The notes under the pieces: generated by a model
What the model saw: the letters and a program-made list of their open reading frames with translations, nothing else
Told to the model about the DNA's origin: nothing
The model's database searches: none
In this document: piece by piece, positions 27,510 to 45,367 of the stretch
Numbering within the stretch: the first letter of the stretch is position 1
How the letters are laid out: each line of letters opens with the position of its first letter
Translations under genes and position numbers: made by a program
DNA from: Catellatospora methionotrophica
GTDB taxonomy: Bacteria; Actinomycetota; Actinomycetes; Mycobacteriales; Micromonosporaceae
Direction: 5' to 3'
DNA: 64,000 bases
NCBI RefSeq assembly: GCF_011297335.1
Contig: NZ_JAAOTJ010000008.1
Coordinates: 1-64,000 of the forward strand

Positions 27510-29030
27510 GTGAGCGAGCGGAGCGAACGGGTGATCGGCGACGAGGCCTTGCGTGGTGCCCCCACGTGGACCCCCAACCCGACCGAGTTGTCCGACCTGG
27601 AGTTGCTGCTGGCCGGGGCGTACGCGCCGCTCGGCGGTTTCCTGGGCCGTGACGACCTGCGGTCGGTGGCCGCCACCTCCCGGCTCGTCGACGGTCGCCC
27701 CTGGCCGCTGCAGGTCAAGCTGGAGGTGCCGGCCGGGATGCTGGACGGCATCGACGTCGCCGAGGCCCCACCGCTGGTGCTGACCGACGCCGAGGGCGCG
27801 CCGATCGCGCGGCTCGACGTCGCCGAGGTGTGGCCGACCCGCGAGGGCTGGTGCGGTGTCGCCGGGCCGGTCACCGCGTACGGCGACGGCGGGCGTGCCC
27901 CGTTCGACCGGCTGCGGGTGCCCACCGAGCACGTCCGCGAGCAGCTCACCGCGCAGCGGGTGCTCGGCTACTTCGCCGACCGGCCGCTGCACCGCCCGCA
28001 GCTCGCCCAGCTCAACCACGCCGCCCGTCAGCTCAACGCGCAGCTCGTGGTGCTGGTGCCGGTCGGCCACCCCGGCCCCGACGGGCTGACCTCGGAGTCG
28101 CTGGTGCGCTGCGTGCTCGCCGCGCGCGACCGGATGAACGAGCCCGTGATCGTGGCCATCCCGCTGACCAACCGCGGCGACGAGGTCACCGACACCCTGG
28201 TCCGGGCGCGGGTCGCCGCCGCGTACGGCGCGACGCACCTGCTCGGCACGGCCAACACCATGTCCGGTGGCGGGCCGCGCGTGCTGGTGCCCCGTGAACT
28301 CGTCTACGACAGCCGCGACGGCCAGTGGCGCGACCGCGACGAGGTCCCCGAGCGGTTCGAGCGCATCGCGCTCACCGACGAGGAGATCGCCGGGCTGCTC
28401 GACGACGGCCTGCCGCTGCCCGAGTGGCACACCCCGCCCGCGGTGGCCCGCGAGCTGTCCAAGGCCCGCCCGCCCCGCCGCCAGCGCGGCGTGGTGCTGT
28501 TCTTCACCGGCTTCAGCGGCTCCGGCAAGTCGACGGTGGCCCGGGGGGTCGCCGACGCCCTGCTGGAGACCGGCGAGCGCAGCCTGACCGTGCTCGACGG
28601 CGACGTGGTGCGCCGCGAGCTGAGCGCCGGGCTCGGCTTCAGCAAGGCCGACCGCGACCTCAACATCCGCCGCATCGGCTGGGTCGCCGCGGAGACGGCC
28701 CGCCACGGCGGCATGGCCATCTGCTGCCCGATCGCGCCGTACGCCAGCGCCCGCGCCAACGCCCGCGCCATGGCCACCGCCGCCGGGGCCGACTTCGTGC
28801 TGGTCCACGTGTCGACCCCGATCGAGGTCTGCGAGCAGCGCGACCGCAAGGGCCTGTACGCCCGCGCCCGCGCCGGTCAGATCACCGGAATGACCGGCAT
28901 CGACGACCCGTACGAGGTGCCGACCGACGCCGAGCTGGTGCTCGACACCTCGGAGGGCTCCATCGACGACGCCGTCGACACCGTGCTGGTGTTCCTGGGC
29001 GAAGAGGGCTGGATCAACCCCCGCAGCTGA
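27510..29030 (+). CDS. cysC: APS kinase with degenerate N-terminal ATP-sulfurylase domain
   Basis: A 506-residue two-domain protein. Residues about 315-500 are an APS kinase making PAPS, the sulfate donor: P-loop GFSGSGKS (334-341, K340), the DGDVVRRELS loop, and FVLVHVSTPIEVCEQRD. Residues 1-310 have the ATP-sulfurylase fold but lost catalysis. The family's QxRNPxHxxH reads FADRPLHRPQ (155-164), keeping only H161, and GRDHAG reads GTANTM (246-251). It is therefore a pseudo-sulfurylase domain fused to a good kinase, probably regulatory, as seen in fungi with the roles reversed. Active ATP sulfurylase must be encoded elsewhere. It lies next to a cluster with two sulfotransferases. Confidence 0.88.
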   Translation: MSERSERVIGDEALRGAPTWTPNPTELSDLELLLAGAYAPLGGFLGRDDLRSVAATSRLVDGRPWPLQVKLEVPAGMLDGIDVAEAPPLVLTDAEGAPIARLDVAEVWPTREGWCGVAGPVTAYGDGGRAPFDRLRVPTEHVREQLTAQRVLGYFADRPLHRPQLAQLNHAARQLNAQLVVLVPVGHPGPDGLTSESLVRCVLAARDRMNEPVIVAIPLTNRGDEVTDTLVRARVAAAYGATHLLGTANTMSGGGPRVLVPRELVYDSRDGQWRDRDEVPERFERIALTDEEIAGLLDDGLPLPEWHTPPAVARELSKARPPRRQRGVVLFFTGFSGSGKSTVARGVADALLETGERSLTVLDGDVVRRELSAGLGFSKADRDLNIRRIGWVAAETARHGGMAICCPIAPYASARANARAMATAAGADFVLVHVSTPIEVCEQRDRKGLYARARAGQITGMTGIDDPYEVPTDAELVLDTSEGSIDDAVDTVLVFLGEEGWINPRS

Positions 29031-29034
29031 ACAG

Positions 29035-29068
29035 CGCGACGGCCCGCCCTCACGGGCGGGCCGTCGCG
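29035..29068. terminator. Bidirectional terminator after cysC
   Basis: Arms of 15 bases (29035-29049 and 29054-29068) pair perfectly around TCAC, with TTT following on the plus strand. It lies between the converging cysC stop (29030) and the GH26-like gene stop (29078) and can serve both. Confidence 0.88.
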
Positions 29069-29077
29069 TTTCGGTGT

Positions 29078-31462
29078 TCAGTAGGCCGGGCCGGTCACGA
29101 TGTCGAAGGCCGGGTGCTTGCTGAACTGCTGGAACGAGTTCAGCCCGGTCGTCGTCATGTCGATCATCGAGCTGCGGCCCTCCTCGGCGTTCGGCGACTC
29201 GAAGTAGACCAGCGCCTTCAGTCGCGGGAACAGCTCCAGCTGCAACCGGGCCGAGTCGAAGAATTTCGACTGGTGCTGCGGGTTGTTCCGGGAGTGCCAC
29301 ACGCCCCACTCGCCGAGCATCAGCGGCTTGTCCGGGAACGACGTCGCGGCCCAGTTGTAGAAGCCCGGCCAGTCCTTGCGGCTGCCCGACTTGCGGTTCA
29401 TCATCTCCGCGAAGTCGCCGTAGCCGTAGCCCGGGTCGCTGTAGGCGTAGGTGTCCCAGGCGACCCAGTCCACCACGTCGTCGCCGGGGTACAGGTCCTC
29501 GAACCAGCTCTTGACGTTCCACGGCACGAAGGCCATGTAGCACATCACCGAGACCAGGTTGGTCACCCCGCGTTCGCGCAGCCCGGTGACCACGTGCCGG
29601 TAGGCGGCGGCGTAGTCCTGCGCGGTCATGCCCGACCCCGGTCGCGGGACGACGTCGTTCTCCGGCTCGTGGTTCATCGTGAAGAAGAACTGGTCACGCA
29701 GGGAACCCCGGATGTGCTCGGCCAGCCGGTCCAGGTAGGCCTCGGTGCGCGCGTCGCCGCGGGCGATCCCGGCCCAGCTGACGCCCTGCGGCTTCCAGTT
29801 GAGGAACAGCACCCGTTTGTGCGCCGGGTCCCTGGTCAGCGACAGCTCGTCCGGCGTGGGGAACAGCGAGGTGCCCCGGTGGTACGCGTGGTACACGACC
29901 TGCTGGCGGTTGGTGCGCCGCTCGAACTCGTACAGCGCCTGGATGCGGTTCTGCGAGGTGTGCGCGCCGGGCGCGACGCCCCACAGCGCCCCGCAGGTCG
30001 GCACCAGAGCCTGCCCGATCACGCACTCCACCGGCTGGTTCGGATCGACCGACGGCGACGGTGAGGCGGGCGCCCCGCTCGGGTCCGTGGTCGGCGGCAC
30101 GCTCGGGTCCGTGCCCTGGCTCGGGTCCACCACAGGCGGCACGCTCGGGTCGGTCGAGGGCGGCACGCTCGGGTCGACGACCGGCGGGACACCGGGGCTG
30201 GGCTCGGTCACGGGCGGAATGCTCGGGTCGACGACCGGCGGGACACCGGGACTCGGTTCGGTCACGGGCGGAACGCTGGGCTCGACCACCGGCGGAATGC
30301 CGGGGCTCGGCTCGGTCACGGGCGGGTCGCTCGGCTCGACGACCGGCGGTACGCCGGGGGTCGGGTCCGGACCCGGATCGGTGCCGGGATCAGGCTGGCC
30401 GGGGCCGGGCGCAGGACCGGGCTCGGTGCTGGGGCTCGGCGGGGTGCCGGGGCCGGGTTCCGTGCCGGGGTCGCCGGGCTGCGTGCCCGGATCGGGGCTC
30501 GGTTCGGTGGCCGGGTCGGGGCTGGGCTGCTGGCCGGGATCGTTGCTCGGGACCGGCTCGGGACCGGGGCCCGGTGCGGTCGACGGGGCGGGATCGCCCG
30601 GCATGGCCGGTGTGTCGCCCGGATACGGCACGCTCGGCTGGGGGCCGGGTTCGTACACCGGGTCGGTGGCGTAGGTGCCGGTCGGGACCGGGCTGGGGTC
30701 GGTCGCCGGGTCGGCCGGGAACGACGGTCCGGGCAGGGTGGCCGGCGTGGGCGTCGCGCTCGGTTCGAACGAGGTGCCCGGCCAGGGCGTCACGGTAGGC
30801 TCCGGCCCCGGCGTCCCGGGCGGGCTGGGCGCGGTCGTGGGCTGGTCCACCGGTGGCGGCAGGCTCGGCCCGACCGGCTCGTTCCACTCGAAGGTGATGG
30901 TCGGCGGCCCGGTCTCGGTGTGCTGCCCGCTCGCCTCGCCCGCCACGAACTGGGCGACCTGGTTGCTGCTCGGCGCGGTGATCGCGAAGGCGTACCGGCC
31001 GGTCCGGCGGACGACCTTGGTGACGTCGAAGGCGACCGCGCGGTCGAACCGGCCCGGCGCGACGCTGGACACCACGTTGCCCAGCCGGGGTGCGGTCGCG
31101 GCGGTCAGGGTGCCCTCCCGCCAGCGGGTGTCCGGCACGCTGGTCAGCTCGACCAGCCCCGGCAGCGGGCCGCCCTGGCGGCCGAGCCACAGCCAGACCT
31201 TCTTCGGCTGGCGGCCGACGGGCAGCTTGACGTCGAACTTGAGATAGCTGACCGCCGCGCCGCCGCCCACCCCACCCGCGGTGAGGGTGAGCCGGCTGCC
31301 CGCGGTGGCCCCGGGTTCGGTGCTCATCGTGTACGAGTCCTCGGACACGGTGACCCGCGTCGGTGGCGCGGACAGCCGACCTGCGACCAGTCCCAGCAGC
31401 ACGGCCGAAGCCAGCGTGGACATGGTGACGGTGACCGCGATGCCGATACGCGTCCTGTTCAT
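29078..31462 (-). CDS. Secreted modular GH26-like glycosidase with proline-rich linker
   Basis: A 794-residue exported protein. An N-terminal membrane/signal segment (about 8-30) is followed by a DNRLRE/CBM96-like beta domain (about 40-200; SYLKFDVKLPV). A 290-residue Pro/Ser/Thr/Asp/Glu linker contains a 54-bp tandem repeat, and the C-terminal glycosidase-like barrel spans about 505-794. The barrel resembles GH26: E599 in NHEPE would be acid/base and E718 in GEWGV the nucleophile. Substrate is unknown; GH26 members cut mannan or mixed beta-glucans, and some sit in polysaccharide biosynthesis loci. ATG 31462 follows GGGGAAGGGG. It diverges from the polysaccharide operon and resembles the lipoprotein at 39570. 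Confidence 0.8.
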   Translation of the reverse strand: MNRTRIGIAVTVTMSTLASAVLLGLVAGRLSAPPTRVTVSEDSYTMSTEPGATAGSRLTLTAGGVGGGAAVSYLKFDVKLPVGRQPKKVWLWLGRQGGPLPGLVELTSVPDTRWREGTLTAATAPRLGNVVSSVAPGRFDRAVAFDVTKVVRRTGRYAFAITAPSSNQVAQFVAGEASGQHTETGPPTITFEWNEPVGPSLPPPVDQPTTAPSPPGTPGPEPTVTPWPGTSFEPSATPTPATLPGPSFPADPATDPSPVPTGTYATDPVYEPGPQPSVPYPGDTPAMPGDPAPSTAPGPGPEPVPSNDPGQQPSPDPATEPSPDPGTQPGDPGTEPGPGTPPSPSTEPGPAPGPGQPDPGTDPGPDPTPGVPPVVEPSDPPVTEPSPGIPPVVEPSVPPVTEPSPGVPPVVDPSIPPVTEPSPGVPPVVDPSVPPSTDPSVPPVVDPSQGTDPSVPPTTDPSGAPASPSPSVDPNQPVECVIGQALVPTCGALWGVAPGAHTSQNRIQALYEFERRTNRQQVVYHAYHRGTSLFPTPDELSLTRDPAHKRVLFLNWKPQGVSWAGIARGDARTEAYLDRLAEHIRGSLRDQFFFTMNHEPENDVVPRPGSGMTAQDYAAAYRHVVTGLRERGVTNLVSVMCYMAFVPWNVKSWFEDLYPGDDVVDWVAWDTYAYSDPGYGYGDFAEMMNRKSGSRKDWPGFYNWAATSFPDKPLMLGEWGVWHSRNNPQHQSKFFDSARLQLELFPRLKALVYFESPNAEEGRSSMIDMTTTGLNSFQQFSKHPAFDIVTGPAY
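30143..30358 (-). repeat. 54-bp tandem repeat in the linker
   Basis: Four consecutive 18-residue units, each close to PGVPPVVEPSxPPVTEPS, run without a break (unit starts at 30358, 30304, 30250 and 30196). The fourth has drifted (PPSTDPS). Degenerate half units continue beyond. Such in-frame repeats change length easily by slippage or recombination. Confidence 0.88.
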
Positions 31463-31719: not shown

Positions 31720-33423
31720 GTGGACGCGACATACGCCGGGCCACCCCCCTCGTCGTACGACATGAGCGACTACCTGGGCTTGATCGCCCGTCACTGGTGG
31801 ATCGCCGTACTGCTGACCCTGGCGGGCACCGCCGGAGGCGCCGCGTACAACGAATCGCTGCCGCGCGAGTACGTCTCCACGGCATCGGTGCTGGTGCGAC
31901 CGGCCGGACTGGACGCCAACGTGTCCGGCGGCCGCACCCGCGACGAGATCAACCTGGACACCGAGGCGCAGCTCATGCGCTCCACCGCCGTGGTCGCCGG
32001 GGCGGCCAAGGTGCTCGGCCGCGACGACGTCGACGTGCTCGCGGGCGCGGTCTCGGTCGAGGTGCCGCCGAACACCGCCGTGCTGCAGATCAAGTACGCC
32101 GCCCCGGAGCCCGAGCAGGCGCAGGCCGGGGCGAAGGCTTTCGCGCAGTCCTACCTGGCCAACCGCGAAGGCAACGCCAAGGCCGAACTGGAGCTCCAGG
32201 CCGCGGCCCTGCGCGACAAGATCAAGGACCTCACCGAGGCCCTCGCGAAGATCAACGGAAAGCTCTCCGACGCGAGCCCGAAGAGCTCCAACTACGCCAC
32301 CCTGGACAGCCAGCGCGACACCACGGTCACCCAGATCAACCAGCTCAACAACAAGGTGAACCAGCTCGCCACCGAGACGGTCAGCGCGGGCACCGTGATC
32401 CGCGAGGCCCGCGTGCCCAGCCGGCCGGTCAAGCCGACCGCGGCGGTCAACTACGCCGCGGGCGCGCTGCTCGGGCTACTCGGCGGCCTGGGCGTCGCCG
32501 CCCTGCGCGAGCGCCTGGACAAGCGCGTACGGGCCGGGCGCGACCTGGTCCGCAGCGGCGTGGCGGTGCTCGGCGCGGTCCCCGGCAAGGGCACCGGCTG
32601 CACGGAGATCTTCACCCCGTTCAGCCCCGGCGGGCGGGCCTTCAACCGGCTGCGCAACGAGGTCGTCGCCGCGTTCCGCCCCGGCGAGCAGGTCGTCGTG
32701 GTCACCGGGGCCAGCCGCGGCCCGGCCGCGACGCTGGTCGCCGCGAACCTCGCCGCGGCGCTGTCGCGCACCGGCGCGGAGGTCGTGCTGATCGGCGCGC
32801 AGCTGCCCGACTCGCTGACCGAGGCCGCCCCGCTGGCCCGGCTCGTCGGCGTCGCGCCGACCCCGGGACTGTCCGAGGTGCTGGCGGGCCGGGTGAGCCT
32901 GGCCGAGTCGACCCAGCGCGCGGCGCGTACGCCCTCGCTGCACGTCATCACCACCGGCGGCACCGCCACCGCGGCAGGCATGCTGCAGTCGCACGCGCTT
33001 CGCGACATCATCACCACGCTGCGCGCGCACGCCGACTACCTGGTGGTCGAGGCCCCCTCGACATCGGCCAGCGCCGACGCGCAGAGCCTGGCCAGCCTCG
33101 CCGACGCCGCGATCCTCGCGGTGGAGACCCGGCGCACCAGCCGCCCCGAGGTCGCCGACGCCGCCGAGCAGCTGCGCCGGGTCGGCACTCCCCTGCTGGG
33201 CGGTGTGATGATGCCGCGGCTGCCGCACAAGGCGCGCCGCAACGGCGCCGAGAACGAGGCCGCGCCCGTCGAACCGGCCGGGCGGCCGCTGCTCGCCGAC
33301 GACGACGAGCCGCTGGACCCGGCCACCAACGGGCACAAGCCGCACGCCGACGAGCAGACCATCATGCTGGCACCGCTGGACGCCTCGGCCCTGACCGAGC
33401 TGGACGAGGCTCACCGGCAATGA
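31720..33423 (+). CDS. Wzz/BY-kinase-like chain-length protein with decayed ATP site
   Basis: A 567-residue protein of the Wzc/CapAB type. A Wzz domain (about 15-250) is bounded by membrane helices at about 27-45 and 245-265 and includes a periplasmic coiled coil (about 150-225). A cytoplasmic BY-kinase fold (about 270-505) follows. The kinase motifs are lost: Walker A is GASRGPAAT (330-338) with no Lys, Walker A' reads IGAQLPD (358-364) instead of VDADxR, and Walker B is VVEAPS (442-447) with E for D. The tail has no Tyr cluster. It probably controls chain length or export as a structural partner. It begins the main operon, and its stop overlaps the ligase ATG. Confidence 0.82.
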   Translation: MDATYAGPPPSSYDMSDYLGLIARHWWIAVLLTLAGTAGGAAYNESLPREYVSTASVLVRPAGLDANVSGGRTRDEINLDTEAQLMRSTAVVAGAAKVLGRDDVDVLAGAVSVEVPPNTAVLQIKYAAPEPEQAQAGAKAFAQSYLANREGNAKAELELQAAALRDKIKDLTEALAKINGKLSDASPKSSNYATLDSQRDTTVTQINQLNNKVNQLATETVSAGTVIREARVPSRPVKPTAAVNYAAGALLGLLGGLGVAALRERLDKRVRAGRDLVRSGVAVLGAVPGKGTGCTEIFTPFSPGGRAFNRLRNEVVAAFRPGEQVVVVTGASRGPAATLVAANLAAALSRTGAEVVLIGAQLPDSLTEAAPLARLVGVAPTPGLSEVLAGRVSLAESTQRAARTPSLHVITTGGTATAAGMLQSHALRDIITTLRAHADYLVVEAPSTSASADAQSLASLADAAILAVETRRTSRPEVADAAEQLRRVGTPLLGGVMMPRLPHKARRNGAENEAAPVEPAGRPLLADDDEPLDPATNGHKPHADEQTIMLAPLDASALTELDEAHRQ

Positions 33424-34850
33424 GCCTCACGCTGCGGGCCGGTGCCCCGGACGGCGTGGTCACGCCGACGCGGGCACCGGCCGGCCTCCGGCTGCTGTTC
33501 GGGCCCGCCTGGCCGCTGACCTCGCTGCTGGCGCTCTATCCGCTGTGGTGGGCACTCGGGCTGGGCGTACTGATCTTCCCGCTGATGGCGGTGCCGATGG
33601 CCTGGCAGCTCTACCGGCGGCACGCCCGGGGCCTGCCCGTCCGCCTGCCGCCCGCGTTCTGGATCTGGCTGGCGTTCTGCACGGTCACGGTGGTCGGCTT
33701 CGGGGTGCTCGACGTGGACCCGGCGGGCACGATCAGCGCGACCTTCGCCGAACGCATCACCGCGCCCATCTACAAACTCGTCCAGCACCTGGCGCTGACG
33801 GTGCTGCTGGTCTACGCGGGCAACCTGTCCGCGGCGGCCCTGCCGCAGCGGCGGCTGGTGAACCTGCTGGCCTGGATGTTCGCGGTGACCGTGGCGGGCG
33901 GCCTGCTGGGTACGTTCGCCGGGCACTTCGAGTTCACCTCGCCGGTGGAGCTGCTGCTGCCCGACGGGGTGCGAAGCAAGGGCTTCGTGAAGTCGCTGGT
34001 CCACCCGTACGCCGCGCAGATCATGGACCTGGTCGGCGACCCGCTGCCCCGCCCCGCCGCGCCCTGGGGCTACACCAACACCTGGGGCAACAACTTCTGC
34101 CTGCTCGTAGTGTGGTTCGTGGCGGCCGTGTTCGCGTACCCGAGCAAGCCGCGCACCCGGCTGCTGGCCGTCGGACTGCTCGCCGTGTCGATCGTGCCGG
34201 TGGTGCACTCCCTGAACCGTGGCCTGTGGATCGGCCTGGGCGCGACCGCGGTGTTCATCGCGGTGCGCCAGGCGCTGGCCGGGCGGCTGCGCGCGCTGGT
34301 CGCCCTCGGCGTGGTGCTGGCCGGGCTGGCCGTCGCGCTGGCGACCACGCCGCTGGGCGGGGTCATCGAGCGCCGCCTCGACAACGGCAAGTCCAACGGG
34401 GTGCGCATGTTCCTCACCGAGCGGGCCGTCGAGGGCGTGGCCGACTCGCCGGTGCTCGGCTTCGGCTCGACGCGCAGCACCCAGGGCGGGCGGCAGTCGA
34501 TCGCGGTCGGCGAGTCGGCGGCGTGTGAGCGCTGCGGCAACTTCACCGTTGGCGGCAACGGCCAGCTGTGGCAGCTGCTGTACGCGCACGGTCTTGCGGG
34601 CACGCTGACCTACTTCGGCTTCTTCGGATACGCCCTGTGGCGCTTCCGGCGCGACCGCTCCGCGCTCGGGCTGGCCGCCTCGGCCGCGATCGCGGGGTCC
34701 TTCGTCGCGGCGCTCTGGTACAACTCGCTCGTCACTCCGCTGGCCTTCACGTTCCTCGGATATGCGGTGCTGTGGCGCAACTCCCGCTTCCAGATCGCGT
34801 CCAGCTCCGTTGAGTCCGTGGGACATAACGGACACCAGGCGAGGAGCTGA
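33420..34850 (+). CDS. O-antigen ligase/polymerase-like membrane protein
   Basis: A 476-residue polytopic protein with about eleven membrane helices and one large extracytoplasmic loop. The loop lies near residues 165-220 and contains KGFVKSLVHPYA. VVHSLNRGLWIGLG (about 260) resembles the core RG motif of Wzy/WaaL proteins, and a second loop carries SACERCGNFTVGGNG with two cysteines. Family members join or polymerise lipid-linked glycans outside the membrane. ATG 33420 overlaps the Wzz-like stop (ATGA). A longer frame from 31797 only reads the upstream gene out of phase. A Wzy role fits the Wzx at 37138. Confidence 0.83.
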   Translation: MSLTLRAGAPDGVVTPTRAPAGLRLLFGPAWPLTSLLALYPLWWALGLGVLIFPLMAVPMAWQLYRRHARGLPVRLPPAFWIWLAFCTVTVVGFGVLDVDPAGTISATFAERITAPIYKLVQHLALTVLLVYAGNLSAAALPQRRLVNLLAWMFAVTVAGGLLGTFAGHFEFTSPVELLLPDGVRSKGFVKSLVHPYAAQIMDLVGDPLPRPAAPWGYTNTWGNNFCLLVVWFVAAVFAYPSKPRTRLLAVGLLAVSIVPVVHSLNRGLWIGLGATAVFIAVRQALAGRLRALVALGVVLAGLAVALATTPLGGVIERRLDNGKSNGVRMFLTERAVEGVADSPVLGFGSTRSTQGGRQSIAVGESAACERCGNFTVGGNGQLWQLLYAHGLAGTLTYFGFFGYALWRFRRDRSALGLAASAAIAGSFVAALWYNSLVTPLAFTFLGYAVLWRNSRFQIASSSVESVGHNGHQARS

Positions 34851-34851: not shown

Positions 34852-34938
34852 GTGCGAAGCAGCGAGCGGGTATTCCGGGGCGCGGCGAGCGAGCGGACCG
34901 CCCCGACCGGCGGCGGCCGTCGCGGCGGCGTCGCGTGA
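34852..34938 (+). CDS. Possible 28-codon bridging micro-ORF
   Basis: GTG 34852 lies one base past the ligase stop. GAGGAG stands five bases upstream, an excellent ribosome site. The frame is open for 28 codons and ends TGA at 34936-34938, overlapping the kinase start GTG 34935. The peptide is rich in Arg, Gly and Ser. It could couple translation of ligase and kinase rather than make a functional peptide. It may also be chance, since stops are rare at this GC. Confidence 0.35.
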   Translation: MRSSERVFRGAASERTAPTGGGRRGGVA

Positions 34939-36191
34939 CCGCGGTCGGCACGGCCGCCGAGCAGGTCGCCGGCGGTGACGCCCAGCTGCGCGGGCAGTAC
35001 CTGCGCGAGGTGCTGGACCTGCTCTACCCGGGTTGCTCGACCGCGACCGAGGGACGCCGCGTGGTCGAGTACCTCGCGATCCCGGACGCGCGGCGGTGCA
35101 AGCTGCTGGTGCCCGCCGGATCGCGCCGGGTCGCCGCCGCGGCGGTGCGCCGGTTCTCCGAGCCGCAGGGCAGGCTCGGCCGGCTCAAGCGCGACGCCGT
35201 CGCCATGGCCCTGCGCTCGGGCGCGTGGTCCACGCTGATCCGCGACCGGGTCCGGCTGACCTCCCCGCACGGCGCGACCGACACCGTCGACCACTTCCTG
35301 TCCACGGCACTGGGCACCCCGCTGCAGGTCAGCATCCATATCGGACCCGCTCGGGCGAACCGCAAGCCGGTCCTGCAGCTGCTCGACCCGCGCGGGGCCA
35401 CCATCGGCTTCGCCAAGTTCGGCGTCGGGCCGCTGACCCGGCGGCTGGTCCGCGCCGAGACAGCGGCCCTGTCCGCGCTGTCGCACGTGCGGCTGCCCGA
35501 CATCGTGGTGCCGAGCATCCTGCACGCCGGGCAGTGGCGCGGCATGCAGGTGCTGGTGCAGTCCGCGCTACCGGTGTGGGAGCCGCGGGTGCCGCTGTCG
35601 GCCACCCGGCTCCAGCGCGCCATGGCCGAGGTCGCGGGCGCGTGCGGGCTGACCATGGGCTGGCTCGCGACCAGCCCGTACTGGGCCGACCTGCGCAACC
35701 GGCTGTGCCAGCTCGTCGCCGACACCCCGGAGGGCTCGGGCCGGGCCGCGACCGAGGTCGGGCAGCTGTTCGAGGCCGCGCGCACGCTGGTCGAGCACGC
35801 CGCCGAGCTGAACCTGCGCTACGGCGCGTGGCACGGCGACTGGGCCCCGTGGAACATGGCCAACGTCGCCGGGTCGCTGCTGATCTGGGACTGGGAACGG
35901 TTCACCCCCGGCGTGCCGCTCGGCTTCGACGCCGTGCACTACGACCTGCAGCGGCAGATCCAGGACGGCGTCGACGCGCAGACCGCCGTCGAGTCCACGG
36001 TGCGGCAGGCCCCGGCGCTGCTCGCGCCGTTCGACGTCGCGCCCGGCAGCGCCGAGATCGTCGCGCTGCTGTACCTGGTGGACCTCGCCACGCGATACCT
36101 CAGCGACCGCCAGGCCGAGGCCGGGGCCCGCCTGGGCGTCACCGGCACCTGGCTGCTGCCGGTGCTGATCCGCAAGGTCCGGTCCCTCTAG
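34935..36191 (+). CDS. Aminoglycoside-phosphotransferase-like kinase in the polysaccharide operon
   Basis: A 418-residue protein with an APH-fold kinase core. The catalytic loop is WHGDWAPWNMAN (299-310, D302 as base and N307 as metal ligand). The DFG-like WDWER follows (D319 as metal ligand). A partial N-lobe is present with KFGVGPLTRRLVRAETAAL. The N-terminal 120 residues are an extension I do not recognise. In this operon a sugar or lipid-linked intermediate is a likelier substrate than an antibiotic, but that is inference. The GTG start is the one reached by the micro-ORF before it. Confidence 0.75.
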   Translation: MTAVGTAAEQVAGGDAQLRGQYLREVLDLLYPGCSTATEGRRVVEYLAIPDARRCKLLVPAGSRRVAAAAVRRFSEPQGRLGRLKRDAVAMALRSGAWSTLIRDRVRLTSPHGATDTVDHFLSTALGTPLQVSIHIGPARANRKPVLQLLDPRGATIGFAKFGVGPLTRRLVRAETAALSALSHVRLPDIVVPSILHAGQWRGMQVLVQSALPVWEPRVPLSATRLQRAMAEVAGACGLTMGWLATSPYWADLRNRLCQLVADTPEGSGRAATEVGQLFEAARTLVEHAAELNLRYGAWHGDWAPWNMANVAGSLLIWDWERFTPGVPLGFDAVHYDLQRQIQDGVDAQTAVESTVRQAPALLAPFDVAPGSAEIVALLYLVDLATRYLSDRQAEAGARLGVTGTWLLPVLIRKVRSL

Positions 36192-36272
36192 ATGTATCCG
36201 GTTCCGGCTCCGGCGCGGCCGCGCGGGAGCCGGCGCACGCCCCGCACCGACCCGCCGATGGAGATCCAGTGA
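36192..36272 (+). CDS. Possible 26-codon bridging micro-ORF
   Basis: ATG 36192 follows the kinase stop directly (TAGATG), with no Shine-Dalgarno sequence. The frame is open for 26 codons and ends TGA 36270-36272, overlapping the sulfotransferase GTG. The peptide is Pro/Arg-rich. Re-initiation after the stop could feed the next start. It may equally be chance. Confidence 0.3.
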   Translation: MYPVPAPARPRGSRRTPRTDPPMEIQ

Positions 36273-37141: not shown

Positions 37142-38763
37142 CCGGTCGGCTCAGCGCACCACCGGGCGCCAACACACCCCGCCAGACGGCACCGCAGCGC
37201 ACCGCACCCGCCGCCCCGCCGGACGGTGCGGCTACCGAGATGTCCGGGTTCGCCCGGGGCGGAGTGGCGAACCTCGCCGGGGCGGCCCTGGCGGCGGTGG
37301 CCGGGGTCGGTGTGACCTGGCTGGTCGCGCGCGGGCTCGGCCCGGACGCGGCGGGCTCGTTCTTCGCCGCCACGGCCGCGTTCGTGCTGGTCGGCGGCAT
37401 CGCCCGGCTGGGCACCACCACCGCGCTGGTCTACTGGCCGGCCCGGCTGCGGGCCCAGGGGCGGCCCGAGCTGATCGGGCCGTGCCTGCGCAGCGGGCTG
37501 GTCCCGGTCGCGGTGCTCGGCGTGCTGCTGGGTGTCGCGGTATGGCTGACCGCCGGGCGCTTCGTGCCCGAGTACGCCGCCCCGCTCACCATGCTGGCCC
37601 TGTTCCTGCCGGTCGCGGCCCTGTCCGAGGCGCTGCTCGCGGCGACCCGCGGTTACCGCATGATGCGCCCCACCGTGCTGCTCGAGAAGATCATGCGCCC
37701 CGCCACGCAGCTGCTGTGCGTGGGCTCGCTGGCCGTGCTGGCCCTGTCCGACATCATCTCGCCGCCGTCGACCTGGGCGCTGGCCTGGGTGCTGCCGTAC
37801 GTGCCGGGAGCCGCCATCGCCGGGTTCCTGGTGTGGCGGCGCTGGCACCACGAGCCGACGCTGACCCGTGGCGACCGGCTGGCCGCCCGGATCGAGGGCC
37901 GCACCGTCGGTGCCGCGTTCTGGCGCTACACCGCGCCCCGCGCGCTGGCCAACGCGGCGCAGACCGCCCTGCAGCGGGTCGACGTGCTCATGGTCGCCGG
38001 GCTGGCCGGTCTCGCCCCCGCCGCCGCGTACGCCGTCGCGGGCCGCTTCGTCGTGCTCGGGCAGCTCGCCAACGGCTCCATCGCGCAGGTCGTGCAGCCA
38101 CGGCTGGCCGAGACCCTGTCGGTCGGCGACCACGCGGGCGCGCTGCGGCTCTACCAGACGGCCACCGCCTGGCTCGTGATGATCAGCTGGCCGCTGCACC
38201 TGGTCGTCGCCTGCTACGCCGACCTGTACCTGGGGCTGTTCGGGGCGTCGTACACCTCGGCCGCGACCGCGGTGCGGGTGCTGGCCGCCGCGATGCTGAT
38301 CAGCACCGGCTGCGGGATGGTCGACATGGTGCTGTCGATGGCCGGGCGCACCACCTGGAACCTGATGAACGTGCTGCTGGCGCTGGTCACCATGGTCGCC
38401 ATCGACCTGGTCGCGATCCCCCGGCTCGGCGTGGTCGGGGCCGCCATCGGCCTGGCCGCCGCCGTCGCGGTGAACAACCTGCTGCCGCTGGCCCAGCTGG
38501 CCACCTCGCTGCACCTGCACCCGTTCGGCTCCGGCACCCGCACCGCGATGGCGCTGGCCGCCGGGAGCTTCGGCGTGCTGCCCTGGCTGGTGCGCCTGGT
38601 GGTGCCGAGCCAGCCGCTGGGCACGGGCGCCGCACTGGTGCTGGCCACCGGGGTCTACATCGGCGGGTTGCGCCGCTTCCAGGATCGGCTGGGCCTGCCG
38701 GCCCTGCTCGCGGCGGCCCGACCCGGCCGCCGCAACACCGTCAAGGCCGCTTCGCAGGGATAG
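37138..38763 (+). CDS. Wzx-type oligosaccharide flippase (MOP superfamily)
   Basis: A 541-residue membrane protein with about 13 or 14 hydrophobic helices. It follows a disordered Pro/Ala N-terminus (1-35). The RGGVANLAGAALAAVAGVGV segment and the late GLAAAVAVNNLLPLAQL are typical of polysaccharide_synt/MOP flippases. It would turn undecaprenyl-linked repeat units to the outer face for the ligase/polymerase at 33420. The basic tail after the last helix is short. It overlaps the sulfotransferase stop, and a family B-like gap is absent. Substrate cannot be predicted. Confidence 0.87.
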   Translation: MTGRLSAPPGANTPRQTAPQRTAPAAPPDGAATEMSGFARGGVANLAGAALAAVAGVGVTWLVARGLGPDAAGSFFAATAAFVLVGGIARLGTTTALVYWPARLRAQGRPELIGPCLRSGLVPVAVLGVLLGVAVWLTAGRFVPEYAAPLTMLALFLPVAALSEALLAATRGYRMMRPTVLLEKIMRPATQLLCVGSLAVLALSDIISPPSTWALAWVLPYVPGAAIAGFLVWRRWHHEPTLTRGDRLAARIEGRTVGAAFWRYTAPRALANAAQTALQRVDVLMVAGLAGLAPAAAYAVAGRFVVLGQLANGSIAQVVQPRLAETLSVGDHAGALRLYQTATAWLVMISWPLHLVVACYADLYLGLFGASYTSAATAVRVLAAAMLISTGCGMVDMVLSMAGRTTWNLMNVLLALVTMVAIDLVAIPRLGVVGAAIGLAAAVAVNNLLPLAQLATSLHLHPFGSGTRTAMALAAGSFGVLPWLVRLVVPSQPLGTGAALVLATGVYIGGLRRFQDRLGLPALLAAARPGRRNTVKAASQG

Positions 38764-38815: not shown

Positions 38816-39568
38816 ATGCGCGCCGACTACACCGAGATCTTCCAGGACGAGGCGACGGTCGAGAAATACGAGCACGTCGTATACGCCCCGGACAGCTACG
38901 CCTCGGCGATAAATCGACGCCAACGCGCCTACCTGCGGCGGCTGGCGAAACGGGCGTTCCCCTACCGCCGCCCCGTGCAGCACGACTTCGCCTGCGGCAC
39001 CGGCCGGGCCATCCGGATCCTGCACGGGCTGGTCCGCGGGGCGCACGGCTACGACACGTCGGCGGCGATGCTCGCCAAGGCCGAGGAGGTCGGCGCGTAC
39101 GCCGAGCTGCACCACGTCGCCGCCGAGGGCGAGGTGCCCGATCCCGCGCCGACCGAGATCCCGGCCCTGGTCACCATCTTCCGGCTGCTGCTCAACGTCG
39201 ACAACGACGTACGCGAGCGGGCCATCGCGTTCTCCGCGAAGGTGCTGCCCAACTACGACGCGGGCCTGCTCGTCGTCGAGAACCACGGCAACCGGCACTC
39301 GCTGCGCCACCTGCGCCACGCCCGGCACACCGGCTCGCCCTGGTTCGCCGAACTCGACCACACCGAGGTCGCCGAACTGCTCGACCGGCACGGCTTCACC
39401 ATCGTCGAGCAGCGCGGCTTCGCCCTGTTCACGCAGGGCTGGTACGGCCGCCGCGGCCTGCGCACCCTGGCCAGGCTCGTCGACGACTTCGTCGCCCGCA
39501 CCGGCTGGGGCGGCACCTGGGCCGTGAACGTGCTGTACGTCGCCCGCCGCACCCGGACCGGCGACTGA
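38816..39568 (+). CDS. Class I SAM-dependent methyltransferase
   Basis: A 250-residue methyltransferase with motif I FACGTGRAIRIL (about 59-70) and the acidic ribose strand GYDTSAAMLAKA (about 77-88). No signal or membrane segment is visible, so it is cytoplasmic. AAAAGGAAC lies before ATG 38816. It follows the flippase by 52 bases and precedes the second GH26-like gene by one base, so it belongs to the operon. A sugar O- or N-methylation role is inference. The acceptor is unknown. Confidence 0.83.
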   Translation: MRADYTEIFQDEATVEKYEHVVYAPDSYASAINRRQRAYLRRLAKRAFPYRRPVQHDFACGTGRAIRILHGLVRGAHGYDTSAAMLAKAEEVGAYAELHHVAAEGEVPDPAPTEIPALVTIFRLLLNVDNDVRERAIAFSAKVLPNYDAGLLVVENHGNRHSLRHLRHARHTGSPWFAELDHTEVAELLDRHGFTIVEQRGFALFTQGWYGRRGLRTLARLVDDFVARTGWGGTWAVNVLYVARRTRTGD

Positions 39569-39569: not shown

Positions 39570-40553
39570 ATGTCCCGCCTGCTGCGGATCCTGACCGGGG
39601 TAGCCGCCGTGGCCACGATGGCCACGTGCGGCTCCCCGCCCCCGGCCGACCGTGGCATCGCGGTGTCCCCGCCACCCGGCTCCCCCGTCGCGCCCGCCGC
39701 GGCGGGCGGGCCGGTCGCCGCCCCCGCGACCGGCGCGCTGCTCGGCGCGTGGGTGCGCCCCGACAGCCTCACCCAGGCCGGGCGGGTCACCGGCGTCGCC
39801 GCGTTCGAAGCCGACCTGGGGCGGCGGCTCGACGTCGTCAACACGTACCGCCGCCTGCGCGAGGAGTTCGGCACCAGCTCCGACCGGATGTTCCTGCAGT
39901 CCGGGGCGACGCTGATGTTCAGCTGGACCGGCGGGCCGAGCGCCGAGGTCGTCCTCGGCGACCACGACGACGAGATCCGCGAGCACGCCCAGCAGGCCCG
40001 TGACCTGGACGTGCCGGTGCTGCTACGGCTGCGCTGGGAGATGGACCGGCCCAACCTGCTGGCCGAGGTCGGCTCGCCCGAGGAGTACGTCGCCGCCTGG
40101 CGGCACACCCGCGCCCTGTTCGCCGCCGAGGGCGCCGACAACGTGTCCTGGGTATGGTGCCCGACCGAGGAGGGCTTCACCTCCGGCCGCGCCCAGGACT
40201 TCTACCCCGGCGACGAGCACGTCGACTGGACCTGCGTCGACGTGTACGCCGGTTCCGAGCTGACCCCGCTGGGCGACCTGCTCGAACCCTTCCTCCGCTG
40301 GGCCGCCGCCCGCCCCCACCCCATCATGATCGGCGAGTACGGCGTCTCCCGCGCCTGGACCGCCGCCCAGCGCGCCTCCTGGCTACGCGACGCGACCACC
40401 GTCTTCCGCCGCAACACCCAGATCAAGGCCGTCCTCTACTTCGAGTCCAACCCCGACAACCGCACCCCCGCCGGCGAGTTCGCCCTCCGCCCCGACCGCG
40501 CCCCCCTCACCGCCTTCCGCGAAACCGCCCTAGACCCCCACTTCACCCGCTGA
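39570..40553 (+). CDS. GH26-like lipoprotein
   Basis: A 327-residue exported lipoprotein with lipobox ATMATC (lipidated C20), a short Ala/Pro linker, and a GH26-like barrel. The catalytic candidates are E157 in RWEMDRP and E256 in GEYGV, equivalent to E599 and E718 of the protein encoded at 29078. Shared local patterns such as FYPGDEHVDWTC against LYPGDDVVDWVA confirm the relation. It would remain on the outer membrane face and trim or transfer the exported glycan. It ends the main operon; a family C palindrome lies 36 bases past its stop. Confidence 0.8.
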   Translation: MSRLLRILTGVAAVATMATCGSPPPADRGIAVSPPPGSPVAPAAAGGPVAAPATGALLGAWVRPDSLTQAGRVTGVAAFEADLGRRLDVVNTYRRLREEFGTSSDRMFLQSGATLMFSWTGGPSAEVVLGDHDDEIREHAQQARDLDVPVLLRLRWEMDRPNLLAEVGSPEEYVAAWRHTRALFAAEGADNVSWVWCPTEEGFTSGRAQDFYPGDEHVDWTCVDVYAGSELTPLGDLLEPFLRWAAARPHPIMIGEYGVSRAWTAAQRASWLRDATTVFRRNTQIKAVLYFESNPDNRTPAGEFALRPDRAPLTAFRETALDPHFTR

Positions 40554-40588
40554 CCAGCCCCGGGCCCGGCGCGCCGGGTCCGGGGCAT

Positions 40589-40649: not shown

Positions 40650-40662
40650 TTGGAAGTCCGGT

Positions 40663-40863
40663 TCAGCGGTTGAACTCGCCCGCCTTCACACCGGCGATGA
40701 ACGAACGCCACGATGCGGGCGAGAACGGCAGGACCGGGCCTCCCGGCTGATCCTTGGAGTCACGTACGCCGACAGCATCCGCCATGAACGCGATCTCGAC
40801 ACAGCTCCCGTTTCCGGCGTCGCTGCGACTGCTCTTGAACCAGCTCGCCCCAGTGCGATTCAT
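40663..40863 (-). CDS. DUF397 domain-containing protein
   Basis: A 66-residue protein covering a single DUF397 domain. The N-terminal WFKSSRSDAGNGSCVEIA, VGVRDSKD, and C-terminal LPFSPASWRSFIAGVKAGEF are all family-typical. DUF397 proteins partner adjacent WhiJ-like XRE regulators in actinobacteria and influence development or antibiotic production. It lies 15 bases after the regulator stop, so they form a two-gene operon. Possible antitoxin-like or anti-regulator action is only proposed for the family. Confidence 0.93.
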   Translation of the reverse strand: MNRTGASWFKSSRSDAGNGSCVEIAFMADAVGVRDSKDQPGGPVLPFSPASWRSFIAGVKAGEFNR

Positions 40864-42142: not shown

Positions 42143-42163
42143 CCCGGGAGCCGAAGACCGCCG

Positions 42164-42240
42164 CCCGCGAAGATCGCTGTTTGCGGTCAAAAAGTGCGGT
42201 CCAACCACAGATTCTGACCACAAACAGTGATCTTCGCGGG
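42164..42240. repeat. Family C 61-bp palindrome, copy 3, with longer arms
   Basis: The 61-base core (42172-42232) has arms extended outward by CCCGCGAA and TTCGCGGG, giving 77 bases in all. It lies 22 bases beyond the stop of the small hypothetical gene and starts a gap of about 300 bases that also contains a family B repeat and G-rich DNA. Confidence 0.9.
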
Positions 42241-42256
42241 CAGTCCTGCCGAGTGC

Positions 42257-42449: not shown

Positions 42450-43256
42450 TCAGCGGCGGCGGAGGGCGGAGGTGGCTAGGAGGCGGGCGGCGTAGGGGAG
42501 GTCGTGGACGAGGTAGCGGCCGGCGAGGCGGCCGGGTTCCTGGGCGAGGCGGTGGGCCCATTCGAGGCCGCTGCGCTGCATCCAGATCGGGGCGCGGTGC
42601 AGTTCGCCCGCGACGAAGCCGATGGCCGCCCCGCAGCCGATGAACCAGGTGAACGGCAGTTCGGCGCGCAGGTCGGAGATGACCCGCTCCTGCTTCGGGA
42701 AGCCCAGGCCGACGAAGACGAAGTCGGGTTTGGCCTCGATGACGTCGGTGTACACCTGCGCGCAGGTGTCGGGGTCGAGGTCGAAGCCGAACGGCGGGGC
42801 GACCTGCCCGGCGATGCGCAGTCCGGGGCATCCGGCGGCGAGCACGGACGCGGCCTTGACCGCGCCGTCCGTGCCGGTCTCGTCGGGGGGCGTGCCGCCG
42901 AGCAGGTAGACCGAGCGCCCGGCGCGGCCGAGGGCGGCGGACAGGCTCCAGATGAGACCGGATCCGGTCACCCGTTCGGGTAGCGGGGTGCGGGACAGTT
43001 TGCTGGCCCAGACCAGCGGCATGCCGTCGGCGACGACGAGCGTCGCGTCCTCCAGGAAGCCGCGTACCTCAGCCGCGCGCGCACCGCGGCCGGAGGCCAG
43101 CCGCATGATGTCGACGTTCGGGGTGAGGATGCGTCCCCCGTCGCCGCGCTCCAGCGCGGTGATCACTCTGTCGGCCACGGCCTCCTCGGTGACGGCGTCG
43201 AACCAGGTGCCGGCGAGGTGGACCTTTCGGCCATAAACAGTCCCCGTAAAAGCCAT
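42450..43256 (-). CDS. WecG/TagA/CpsF family glycosyltransferase
   Basis: A 268-residue enzyme of the GT26 family, which transfers ManNAc-type or other sugars onto lipid-linked primers. Features are TPNVDIMRLA (about 45-54), ADGMPLVWASKL (about 75-86), and the C-terminal FVGLGFPKQE (about 197-206), all typical. A cytoplasmic soluble protein, it acts at the membrane through its C-terminal Arg-rich helices. ATG 43256 is chosen; a long frame to 44300 is only the antisense of the next gene. It diverges from the second sulfotransferase and shares its promoter gap. Confidence 0.9.
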   Translation of the reverse strand: MAFTGTVYGRKVHLAGTWFDAVTEEAVADRVITALERGDGGRILTPNVDIMRLASGRGARAAEVRGFLEDATLVVADGMPLVWASKLSRTPLPERVTGSGLIWSLSAALGRAGRSVYLLGGTPPDETGTDGAVKAASVLAAGCPGLRIAGQVAPPFGFDLDPDTCAQVYTDVIEAKPDFVFVGLGFPKQERVISDLRAELPFTWFIGCGAAIGFVAGELHRAPIWMQRSGLEWAHRLAQEPGRLAGRYLVHDLPYAARLLATSALRRR

Positions 43257-43343
43257 GAATTCAGACAATACAGACCAACAACACTGTTCGGTCGTTATAC
43301 CGCATGAGCGCGTCGCGGACCGGCACGCCGCAGTGGGGGATGT

Positions 43344-44306
43344 ATGACGACCAGGGTTCTTTTCGTCGGTGGGCTCGGCCGTAGCGGCACGACGCTGATC
43401 GAGCGCGTGCTGGGCGAACTGCCCGGCGTGTGCGCCCTGGGCGAGATCGTCCATCTGTGGCAGCGCGATCTGCGCGACGACGAGCGCTGCGGCTGCGGTG
43501 AGCGGTTCAGCGGCTGCGACTTCTGGCAGCGCGTCGGCGTGGTCGCGTTCGGCGGCTGGCACCGGGTGGACGTGCACCGCATCCTGGCGCTGCGCGACCT
43601 GGTCGAGCGCACCCGGCACATCCCCCGGCTGGCCGGGTCGAGCCGCCTGGCCAGGGACTTCACCACGCTGGTCACCGAGTACGCCGACTACTACGGGCGC
43701 ATCTACGCCGCGGCCGCCGAGGTCTCCGGCGCGAGCGTCGTCATCGACTCGTCCAAGCACAGCGCTCTCGCGCACTGCCTGCGCTGGTCGGAGGCGGTGG
43801 ACCTGCGGGTGCTGCACGTGGTGCGCGACGCCCGCGGGGTGGCGTACTCGTGGACCAAGACCGTGGCGCGGCCCGAGACCGACGGCACGGAGGAGATGAC
43901 GCGTTACGCCCCGACCCGCAGCGCGCTGCTGTGGAACGCGCACAACGCGGCCTTCGGGCTGCTGCGCCGCCGGGGCGTCGCCGTACGCCGGGTGCGGTAT
44001 GAGGAGTTCCTGGCCCGGCCCCGCAACAGCGTGCTGCGTATCGCCGCGTTCATGGGGCTGGACCCGTCCGTGATGGACCTGGGCTTCGTCGACGACGACG
44101 CCGTCGAGCTGTCCGTCGGCCACAGCGCCGCGGGCAACCCGATGCGGTTCACGGTCGGGCGCATCGAGTTGCGCCGCGACGACGCCTGGCGGCGGCACCT
44201 GCCGCCCCGCCAGCGCGCCCTGGTCGGGGCCGTCTGCGCACCGCTGCTGCGGGCGTACGGGTACCCGCTGAGCAGTACCGCCGAGATCGTGGGAGCACAC
44301 CGATGA
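43344..44306 (+). CDS. Second sulfotransferase
   Basis: A 320-residue PAPS-dependent sulfotransferase distinct from that at 36269. The 5'-phosphosulfate loop is GGLGRSGTTLIER (9-21). The 3'-phosphate site is VVRDARGVAYSW (about 157-168). A Cys-rich insert, RCGCGERFSGC (about 51-61), might bind metal or form a disulfide; the first enzyme lacks it. It is cytoplasmic. It overlaps the glycosyltransferase start by four bases (ATGA), coupling sulfation and glycosylation. The acceptor is unknown. Confidence 0.88.
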   Translation: MTTRVLFVGGLGRSGTTLIERVLGELPGVCALGEIVHLWQRDLRDDERCGCGERFSGCDFWQRVGVVAFGGWHRVDVHRILALRDLVERTRHIPRLAGSSRLARDFTTLVTEYADYYGRIYAAAAEVSGASVVIDSSKHSALAHCLRWSEAVDLRVLHVVRDARGVAYSWTKTVARPETDGTEEMTRYAPTRSALLWNAHNAAFGLLRRRGVAVRRVRYEEFLARPRNSVLRIAAFMGLDPSVMDLGFVDDDAVELSVGHSAAGNPMRFTVGRIELRRDDAWRRHLPPRQRALVGAVCAPLLRAYGYPLSSTAEIVGAHR

Positions 44307-45367
44307 AAGACAAGGTCAACACCGGCCGGTTCGACGGCACCCGTGGCGCCCGCCCGGTGGCCGTCCCTGCCCCGGCCGACGGCACGCCGGTCGGCGGCAC
44401 GCAGGCAGAGCGGCCGGTCGCGGCCGGGGAGTCCGTCCCGGCGGATGGTCGCGACTGGCCCGCCGTGGGTGTGGTCATCCCGACCCGCAACCGCCCGGAG
44501 CTGCTGCGCAAGACCCTCGACGCGGTACGCGCGCAGGACTACCCCGGTCCGCTGCGCCTCATCGTGGTCTTCGACCAGGCCGAGCCTGACCTGGAACTGG
44601 CCACCGACGACCACCGCCCGGTGCTGGTGCTGGCCAACCAGCGGCAGCCCGGCCTGGCCGGAGCCCGCAACACGGGCATCACCGCCCTGGACACCGAGCT
44701 GGTGGCGTTCTGCGACGACGACGACCTGTGGCACCCGAGCAAGCTGCGCCGCCAGGTCGACGCCCTGCTCCGCACCCCGGACGCGGAGTTCGCGACGTGT
44801 GCGGTCGAGGTGGAGTTCGAGGGGGTCGCCCACCCCCGGCTCGCGGGCACCGACGCGGTGACCGTCGAGCACCTGGCCCGCTCCCGGATGTCGATGCTGC
44901 ACTCGTCGGGTTTCCTGGCCCGCCGCGAGACACTGCTGGAGTCCGGCGTCATCGGCCCGGTCTCCGAGGACGCGCCGGGCAGCCAGAACGAGGACTGGGA
45001 CCTGCTGCTGCGGGCCGCCCGGCGGCACCCGATCGTGCACGTCGACGAACCGCTGGTCCGGGTGCTCTGGGGCCGCAGCAGCTTCTACGCGTACGAGTAC
45101 TCCACCAAGATCTCTTCGCTGCGCTGGATGATGGCCCGCCACCCGGAGATCTCCGGCTGCCGGCCCGGTGCGGCCCGCGTCTACGGCCAGCTCGCCTGCT
45201 GGTCGGCGGCGGCCGGGGACAAGCGGCAGGCCTGGCGCTGGACCCGCGAGACGGTGCGCCACAACTGGCGCGAGCCGCGGGCCGCGATCGCGCTGGCGGC
45301 GCTGACCGGGGCGGTCAAGGTCGAGACGGTGCTGACCGCGCTGCACCGGCGCGGTCACGGCATCTGA
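44303..45367 (+). CDS. GT2 family glycosyltransferase
   Basis: A 354-residue inverting glycosyltransferase of the GT-A fold. An unusual 50-residue Ala/Pro/Gly-rich N-terminal tail precedes the catalytic core. That core has VVIPTRNRPELLRKTL (about 56-71), GLAGARNTGI (about 118-127), and the metal-binding CDDDDLW (137-143). ED in NEDWDLLLRA (about 231) resembles the catalytic base. No membrane helix is visible. It is coupled to the sulfotransferase upstream, so the sulfated acceptor may be a product of one of these genes. The sugar is not predictable. Confidence 0.88.
   Translation: MKDKVNTGRFDGTRGARPVAVPAPADGTPVGGTQAERPVAAGESVPADGRDWPAVGVVIPTRNRPELLRKTLDAVRAQDYPGPLRLIVVFDQAEPDLELATDDHRPVLVLANQRQPGLAGARNTGITALDTELVAFCDDDDLWHPSKLRRQVDALLRTPDAEFATCAVEVEFEGVAHPRLAGTDAVTVEHLARSRMSMLHSSGFLARRETLLESGVIGPVSEDAPGSQNEDWDLLLRAARRHPIVHVDEPLVRVLWGRSSFYAYEYSTKISSLRWMMARHPEISGCRPGAARVYGQLACWSAAAGDKRQAWRWTRETVRHNWREPRAAIALAALTGAVKVETVLTALHRRGHGI

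Follow-up and report, generated by a model that had tools for sequence, protein, structure and literature searches.

Why does an actinomycete encode two sulfotransferases and an adenosine 5'-phosphosulfate (APS) kinase among genes for glycan synthesis? The question is raised by positions 27510–45367 of a 64,000-nucleotide stretch (the window; contig C55, 1–64000) from a Catellatospora (Micromonosporaceae) genome of 8.39 Mb in 56 contigs. An earlier note, made from the letters of the window, had proposed a sulfated exopolysaccharide locus with an APS kinase, two sulfotransferases, Wzx, ligase-like, Wzz, WecG/TagA, GT2, methyltransferase and aminoglycoside phosphotransferase (APH)-like proteins, and two GH26-like proteins. 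All of these genes are present in the interval, and Pfam, PDB-sequence and codon-position evidence bears out the list (Table 1). A sulfated exopolysaccharide locus is also the best reading of the region, and the same reading has been published for a cluster of Actinoplanes missouriensis, wps-1 (Tezuka & Ohnishi 2026, PMC13390465). By gene content and order, the window locus is the Catellatospora version of wps-1, and its main idea is already in print for a relative. What our comparisons add to the published cluster is probably its initiator, its supplier of 3'-phosphoadenosine 5'-phosphosulfate (PAPS), its spread across the family and a second cluster.

The locus and wps-1 of A. missouriensis

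As described, wps-1 encodes WpsA (GT2), WpsB (Gal/GlcNAc-type sulfotransferase), WpsC (WecG), WpsD (DUF4262), WpsE (GH26), WpsF (methyltransferase), WpsG (Wzx), WpsH (heparan-type sulfotransferase), WpsI (kinase-like), WpsJ (Wzy) and WpsK (Wzz), followed by AMIS_7390 (PMC13390465). Matched by described order and domains, 11 of these 12 genes lie in the window, in reversed order. We refer to WpsH and WpsB as ST1 and ST2, and to WpsE as GH26b. The window differs from the described cluster in that wpsD was not seen, a regulator gene lies between the two halves, and a gene for a second GH26-like protein (GH26a) lies between those for the APS kinase and Wzz. In both Actinoplanes loci checked, wpsD sits between the GH26b and WecG genes, and the Actinoplanes loci in our named set (below) share the gene order of the window.

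By the published account, wps-1 deletions in A. missouriensis deform sporangia and lower spore release (PMC13390465). Loss of wpsA, C, G, H, I, J or K gave squashed sporangia; wpsE and wpsF mutants were abnormal, and the wpsD mutant was normal. The wpsB mutant made normal-looking sporangia and released ∼tenfold fewer spores. Deletion of AMIS_7390 was severely defective, a phenotype that was called unexpected; the enzyme was placed in sulfur amino acid synthesis. The main text of the paper does not use the terms PAPS, priming, initiating, Micromonosporaceae, conserved, ortholog or cysD, and our searches of the open-access literature turned up no report that connects these genes in any other actinobacterium.

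Conservation was scored in a named set consisting of the best 80 of 262 related loci (fetched by ST1 alone, with other genes sought by tblastn; several of these loci end at contig boundaries), in 121 genomes of the family and in 396 genomes of the phylum. Our cut-offs (ST1 at ≥58% identity, where identities step from 59 to 57%; a phosphoglycosyl transferase within 6 kb of CysQ; linkage within 20 kb) were chosen after the result lists had been viewed. Left out of the family counts were ST1 matches below 53%, ST2 matches below 48% (one of three pieces in G029 was kept), weak APS-kinase matches, phosphoglycosyl transferases below 53% and CysQ below 57%; the counts refer to the matches listed.

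The core of the locus is conserved as a unit across Micromonosporaceae, and its arrangement is not chance. Among the 80 named loci, APH-like and Wzx genes were each found in 79, and Wzz and ligase-like genes in 78; counts were 70 for WecG, 69 each for ST2, GT2 and the methyltransferase, and 65 for the APS kinase. By a stricter count (orthologues of >40% identity), GH26b was present in 70 and GH26a in 60. Looser tblastn counts (GH26a 72/80, GH26b 74/80) were set aside for cross-matches between the two GH26 proteins. ST1 occurs in 81 of the 121 family genomes, with ST2 within 20 kb in 77 of them; the two share no contig in three genomes and lie 565 kb apart in one. The APS kinase gene is within 20 kb of ST1 in 63 of the 81. 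These linkages are the co-occurrence that the earlier note had proposed to look for, and the outcome it regarded as fatal, conservation of the sulfotransferases where the glycan genes are lacking, did not appear among ST1 and ST2 orthologues. To its remark that sulfated surface glycans are rarely described in actinobacteria it should be added that a locus of this kind is in print and that, within the family, they are common enough not to be called rare. Across the phylum sample, 24 of 396 genomes encode a protein related to ST1 (E 1e-40 or better), 21 of them outside Micromonosporaceae; in at least 9 of these 21, relatives of the APH-like, Wzx, ligase-like or Wzz proteins are encoded in the short flanks of ST1. 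Three extra-family loci fetched more widely (G350, G168, G485) hold most of the core.

A different arrangement was seen in genus g32 (G057, G032, G114, G099, G088, G075), where an ST1 relative of 56–57% identity is encoded 0.7–1.2 kb from the APS kinase gene; no ST2 match was found within 20 kb. Upstream regions of 250 bases were also scanned with four rough patterns for sporulation-type promoters. In 69 such regions ahead of ST2 and 78 ahead of Wzz, no pattern gave more than 6 matches, and a WhiG-like pattern matched 0/69 and 1/78, respectively.

Candidates for priming and sulfate activation

The earlier note correctly reported an initiating phosphoglycosyl transferase (PGT) and CysD/CysN as missing from the window; both are encoded on other contigs of the genome. 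None of its three PF02397 PGTs is in the window. PF01507 also finds three proteins, CysH and two CysD, and each CysD gene adjoins a PGT gene. On contig C22 (1–3738), a PGT gene is followed by genes for a CysQ-like phosphatase, CysD and CysN, the last broken by the contig end. In five genomes (G038, G059, G033, G011, G048), this block adjoins the GT2 end of wps-1. CysQ lies within 20 kb of ST1 in 7 of the 81 genomes and at 33–40 kb in 8 more. When 20 CysQ surroundings were fetched, all contained CysQ–CysD–CysN, and a PGT stood beside them in 12/12 genomes with wps-1 versus 0/8 without ST1. For the whole family sample, a PGT within 6 kb of CysQ was found in 77 of the 81 genomes with wps-1 versus 1 of the 40 without. 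The exceptions with wps-1 are G023, G028, G062 (CysQ 868 bases from a contig end) and G102 (6.7 kb apart); the reverse exception, G002, is a draft of 810 contigs. Diverged ST1 is present in 13 of the 40 genomes scored as lacking wps-1. This association, our strongest new result, suggests that the PF02397 PGT beside CysQ is probably the initiating enzyme of wps-1.

The APS kinase named in the earlier note stands as far as its kinase half is concerned, and can now be described more fully as a 506-residue protein of PUA, ATP-sulfurylase-like and APS-kinase domains. Its C-terminal half scores far above the Pfam cut-off and reaches 183 bits with TIGR00455 (cut-off 138.7), and the P-loop GxSGxGKST and LDGD motifs are kept in 74 aligned sequences. 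The N-terminal half is degenerate. At the ATP-sulfurylase site, fungal ATP sulfurylase has HRAH and the window protein HRPQ; LHRPQ is invariant in 74/74 aligned sequences, some of them from one and the same genome. As a bifunctional ATP sulfurylase/APS kinase (PRK05537) the protein falls short, with no HxxH and 401.8 bits against a cut-off of 669. The best PDB-sequence match, the two-domain APS kinase of Thiobacillus denitrificans (3cr8), similarly reads HRAQ, the second His being replaced by Gln. The window protein is ∼46 residues shorter (506 versus 552), and its gene is linked to a glycan locus.

A PF01583 search of the source genome found no APS kinase other than the window protein. Because its ATP-sulfurylase half is degenerate and it is the sole APS kinase found, the window protein is probably the PAPS supplier. 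Such a role would explain the "unexpected" phenotype of the AMIS_7390 deletion. The CysH of the source genome carries Cys motifs that we take to be typical of APS reductases; if CysH is an APS reductase, cysteine synthesis would proceed without need for PAPS. Exclusive service of wps-1 by PAPS synthesis is ruled out, since the kinase is matched in genomes that lack ST1. Nor is the gene, which the earlier note counted with the locus, exclusive to the cluster: in all three ST1-less genomes whose APS-kinase surroundings were fetched, the gene lies near that for phosphoenolpyruvate (PEP) carboxylase all the same. The source genome also encodes further Sulfotransfer_3 proteins (G000:C45:397086-397718, C34:332248-332970, C1:1541789-1542601), so PAPS may have other users.

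The octamer GAAACTGT occurs upstream of the APS kinase gene in 37/64 related loci and is absent upstream of that in the window; it is a possible regulator site in other genera. A general octamer count of upstream regions was dropped, being dominated by neighbouring coding sequence and descent.

Proposed pathway and alternatives

These assignments suggest, and we consider it likely, that the locus makes an exopolysaccharide by a Wzx/Wzy-type route, with sulfation of the repeat unit taking place in the cytoplasm. CysD/CysN, encoded elsewhere beside CysQ and the PGT, would make APS, and the window kinase would convert it to PAPS. The PGT beside CysQ would load the first sugar onto undecaprenyl phosphate, with WecG and the GT2 enzyme adding others. 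ST1 and ST2 would sulfate the lipid-linked unit, which the methyltransferase and the APH-fold kinase may modify as well, while CysQ would clear the by-product 3'-phosphoadenosine 5'-phosphate. Wzx would then flip the unit, the ligase-like protein polymerize it and the kinase-dead Wzz set chain length; exported GH26 proteins may trim or remodel the product. The polymer would serve the sporangium in A. missouriensis and coat spores or hyphae in Catellatospora. To our knowledge, Catellatospora forms no sporangia.

On balance we lean towards a broader proposal, in which wps-1, the APS kinase and the PGT–CysQ–CysD–CysN block form one pathway, whose parts have become scattered along the chromosome in many lineages and are gained and lost together. 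As a trait of Micromonosporaceae and their actinobacterial relatives it would be old, predating the sporangium; a sulfated spore or hyphal glycan would be general in the family, and Catellatospora would possess, in addition, a second version that has diverged and has sulfate-activation genes of its own.

Several observations weigh against the proposed pathway. The APS kinase family is matched in 121/121 family genomes, ST1-less ones included (G070 only at 8.9e-4), which implies another use or another partner there. Even among the 81 genomes with ST1, the kinase gene is beyond 20 kb in 18, in 9 of these on a different contig. The CysQ assignment scores 93 bits against an NCBIfam cut-off of 228.8, and WecG, GT2 and the PGT are few glycosyltransferases for a heteropolymer. 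For A. missouriensis, the published account reports no induction of AMIS_7390 together with wps-1 on day 3, and by its authors' own account the proposed sulfated polysaccharide awaits verification (PMC13390465). The normal-looking sporangia of the wpsB mutant described there indicate that one sulfotransferase is not essential for shape.

The PGT beside CysQ could instead start another polysaccharide, its link to wps-1 being a mere correlation through shared descent. The 121 genomes are related, so that 77/81 versus 1/40 represents far fewer independent events, and Fisher's exact p = 6e-26 ignores descent; the source genome also has other PGTs. Yet both states occur within single genera, g21 (G021 versus G051 and G069) and g22 (G052 versus G022 and G070), each with species that have both PGT and wps-1 and species that have neither, and in some lineages the PGT block adjoins wps-1. 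Loss of the whole CysQ locus does not account for the correlation, since CysQ was found in 120/121 family genomes. By the same count, a candidate association of CysQ–CysD–CysN as a whole with wps-1 is ruled out: only the PGT tracks it. We regard shared descent as an unlikely explanation, though one to be taken seriously.

Less probable still is that the O-antigen-ligase-like protein is a true ligase, so that a sulfated glycan, whether an oligo- or a polysaccharide, is attached to the wall of the cell or the envelope of the spore and no free exopolysaccharide is made. In its favour, WpsJ, a member of the ligase/Wzy superfamily that falls short of the Pfam cut-off, is the one polymerase candidate; no other protein in the window was recognized as a possible Wzy, and Gram-positive envelopes offer acceptors. 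However, a Wzz-type co-polymerase linked in nearly every named locus fits polymerization, and the defects of the described mutants lie in the sporangium, which is known to contain a matrix polysaccharide (PMC13390465). Nor do we give much credence to the idea that the sulfotransferases and APS kinase act on a lipid, protein or secondary metabolite and that the neighbouring exopolysaccharide goes unsulfated. Sulfation of the polymer is deduced, tyrosylprotein sulfotransferases are the nearest match to the ST2 model, and the APS kinase occurs without the cluster; but ST1 is encoded between the APH-like and Wzx genes in relatives, its best-characterized PDB-sequence matches are heparan sulfate sulfotransferases, and the A. 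missouriensis WpsH (ST1) mutant, as described, resembles the Wzx, Wzy and Wzz mutants (PMC13390465).

Gene assignments, second cluster and related systems

Gene calls rest on codon-position composition, Pfam, inspection of start codons and PDB-sequence comparison. PAPS-binding motifs are conserved in both sulfotransferases (alignments, Pfam, PDB comparison). Heparan sulfotransferases have a Lys in the P-loop; ST1 keeps a P-loop-like motif with Arg at that site. The ST2 model (predicted local distance difference test, pLDDT, 87.6) is closest to tyrosylprotein sulfotransferase and heparan sulfate 3-O-sulfotransferase (HS 3-OST), at template modelling (TM) scores of ∼0.4–0.55.

Table 1. Features of the locus, with positions in the window
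Feature	Position	Strand	Evidence
APS kinase with degenerate ATP-sulfurylase-like N-terminal half (putative PAPS synthesis); AMIS_7390 counterpart	27510..29030	+	Pfam APS_kinase 7e-56, PUA_2, ATP-sulfurylase; PDB-sequence 3cr8; HRPQ 74/74 aligned
GH26a: exported; N-terminal hydrophobic segment (5-28), CBM96, Pro/Ser-rich linker, GH26-like domain	29078..31462	-	CBM96 2.7e-11, GH26 0.0046; PDB GH26 matches
WpsK: Wzz/polysaccharide co-polymerase; tyrosine-kinase-like domain without Walker A lysine	31720..33423	+	Pfam Wzz 7.9e-6; NCBIfam exopolysaccharide (EPS) kinase families below cut-off; motif
WpsJ: O-antigen-ligase-like, putative Wzy polymerase	33420..34850	+	Wzy_C 2.6e-5, below cut-off; ~8 hydrophobic segments
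WpsI: predicted small-molecule kinase of APH/fructosamine-kinase fold	34935..36191	+	HGDW...N...WDxE invariant, 31 sequences; predicted fold ~ APH(4)-Ia, FN3K
WpsH (ST1): heparan-sulfate-sulfotransferase-like sulfotransferase	36269..37141	+	Sulfotransfer_1 5.1e-12; PDB matches 3rnl, HS 3-OST, NDST1; HKGVHYF 81/81
WpsG: Wzx-type flippase	37138..38763	+	~10 hydrophobic segments; weak SpoVB match; adjoins ST1 in relatives
WpsF: S-adenosylmethionine-dependent methyltransferase	38816..39568	+	Methyltransf_23 1.5e-5, below cut-off; in 69/80 loci
WpsE (GH26b): GH26 family, probably lipoprotein	39570..40553	+	Glyco_hydro_26 1.1e-8; PDB GH26 matches; RWEMDR 71/71; lipobox by eye
Small DUF397-like reading frame (by eye), near regulator	~40663-40863	-	
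DUF5753/HTH regulator between the two halves of wps-1	40879-41763	-	Matched in 2/80 named loci
WpsC: WecG/TagA (GT26) glycosyltransferase	42450..43256	-	PF03808 1.1e-49
WpsB (ST2): sulfotransferase	43344..44306	+	Sulfotransfer_3 8.3e-12; predicted fold ~ tyrosylprotein sulfotransferase, HS 3-OST
WpsA: GT2 glycosyltransferase	44303..45367	+	Glycos_transf_2 1.3e-20

Flippase, polymerase and co-polymerase of the Wzx/Wzy-type pathway are linked in 78–79 of the 80 named loci, although the single assignments of Wzx and Wzy are weak. WpsJ reaches 24.5 bits with Wzy_C (Pfam cut-off 31.7); WpsG has no Pfam match at E 0.01 and scores 30.5 bits with NCBIfam SpoVB (cut-off 372.3). The hydrophobic segments of both come from a simple hydropathy scan. 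In the C-terminal domain of WpsK, the Walker A lysine is absent from the 51 of 77 sequences displayed, so this domain is probably not an active kinase. GH26a scores 16.8 bits for GH26, below the cut-off of 20.2, but has a CBM96 domain, and both catalytic glutamates are present in the 53–54 of 61 sequences displayed. For GH26b, the catalytic RWEMDR is joined by the second Glu in the 69 of 71 displayed. WpsI has no Pfam or NCBIfam match; it keeps the HGDxxxxN and WDxE residues in 31/31 sequences, and the structures nearest to its model (pLDDT 86.9) are APH(4)-Ia and fructosamine-3-kinase (FN3K), at modest TM scores of ∼0.4–0.6. Nothing in the sequence or predicted-fold comparison of WpsI suggests drug resistance.

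Nothing unusual flanks the locus: on the left lie mfd and the PEP carboxylase gene, on the right a DeoR regulator gene, galT and then housekeeping genes. The DUF5753/HTH regulator gene lies within the interval of the earlier note but is matched in only 2/80 named loci, so the regulator block is probably an insertion. On either side of the block, at ∼40587–40652 and 42173–42233, stands an imperfect inverted repeat; by eye, the two are similar (gatcgctgtttgcggtca ... tgaccnnaaacagngatc) and possibly represent a repeated palindromic element of the source genome.

Pieces of a second, diverged sulfated-glycan-like cluster lie on source contigs C20 and C43. The C43 piece encodes a PGT and CysD; that on C20 encodes the end of CysN, GH26, Wzx, ST1 (∼53–55%), APH-like, ligase-like, Wzz, Alg14-like, ST2 (∼47–48%), GT2 and CBM96/GH26-like proteins. 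No WecG or methyltransferase relative was seen in this cluster at E 1e-8. The cluster is intact, PGT–CysD–CysN included, in a one-contig relative (G067:C1, ∼1,111,700–1,130,000).

Our assignments of PGT, CysQ and APS kinase would supply the missing start and sulfate supply of the published cluster, and offer a reason for the AMIS_7390 phenotype. Should the product carry sulfate, synthesis of a sulfated polysaccharide would occur in a large family of soil actinomycetes, through a pathway simple enough for gene-by-gene testing. Among bacteria, such polymers were for a long time seen as a specialty of cyanobacteria, as two papers state (PMC8205485, PMC13390465). By its published description, the synechan (xss) cluster of Synechocystis PCC 6803, whose product contains sulfate, resembles the window in being Wzx/Wzy-type with two sulfotransferases of distinct subfamilies; unlike the window, it has eight glycosyltransferases, its own priming enzyme, outer-membrane export and other regulators (PMC8205485). 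The capsule clusters of Vibrio sp. KMM 8419 and Cobetia marina KMM 1449, also compared by description, are likewise biosynthetic gene sets described for a sulfated polysaccharide of the cell surface, but they belong to capsules of Gram-negative marine bacteria.

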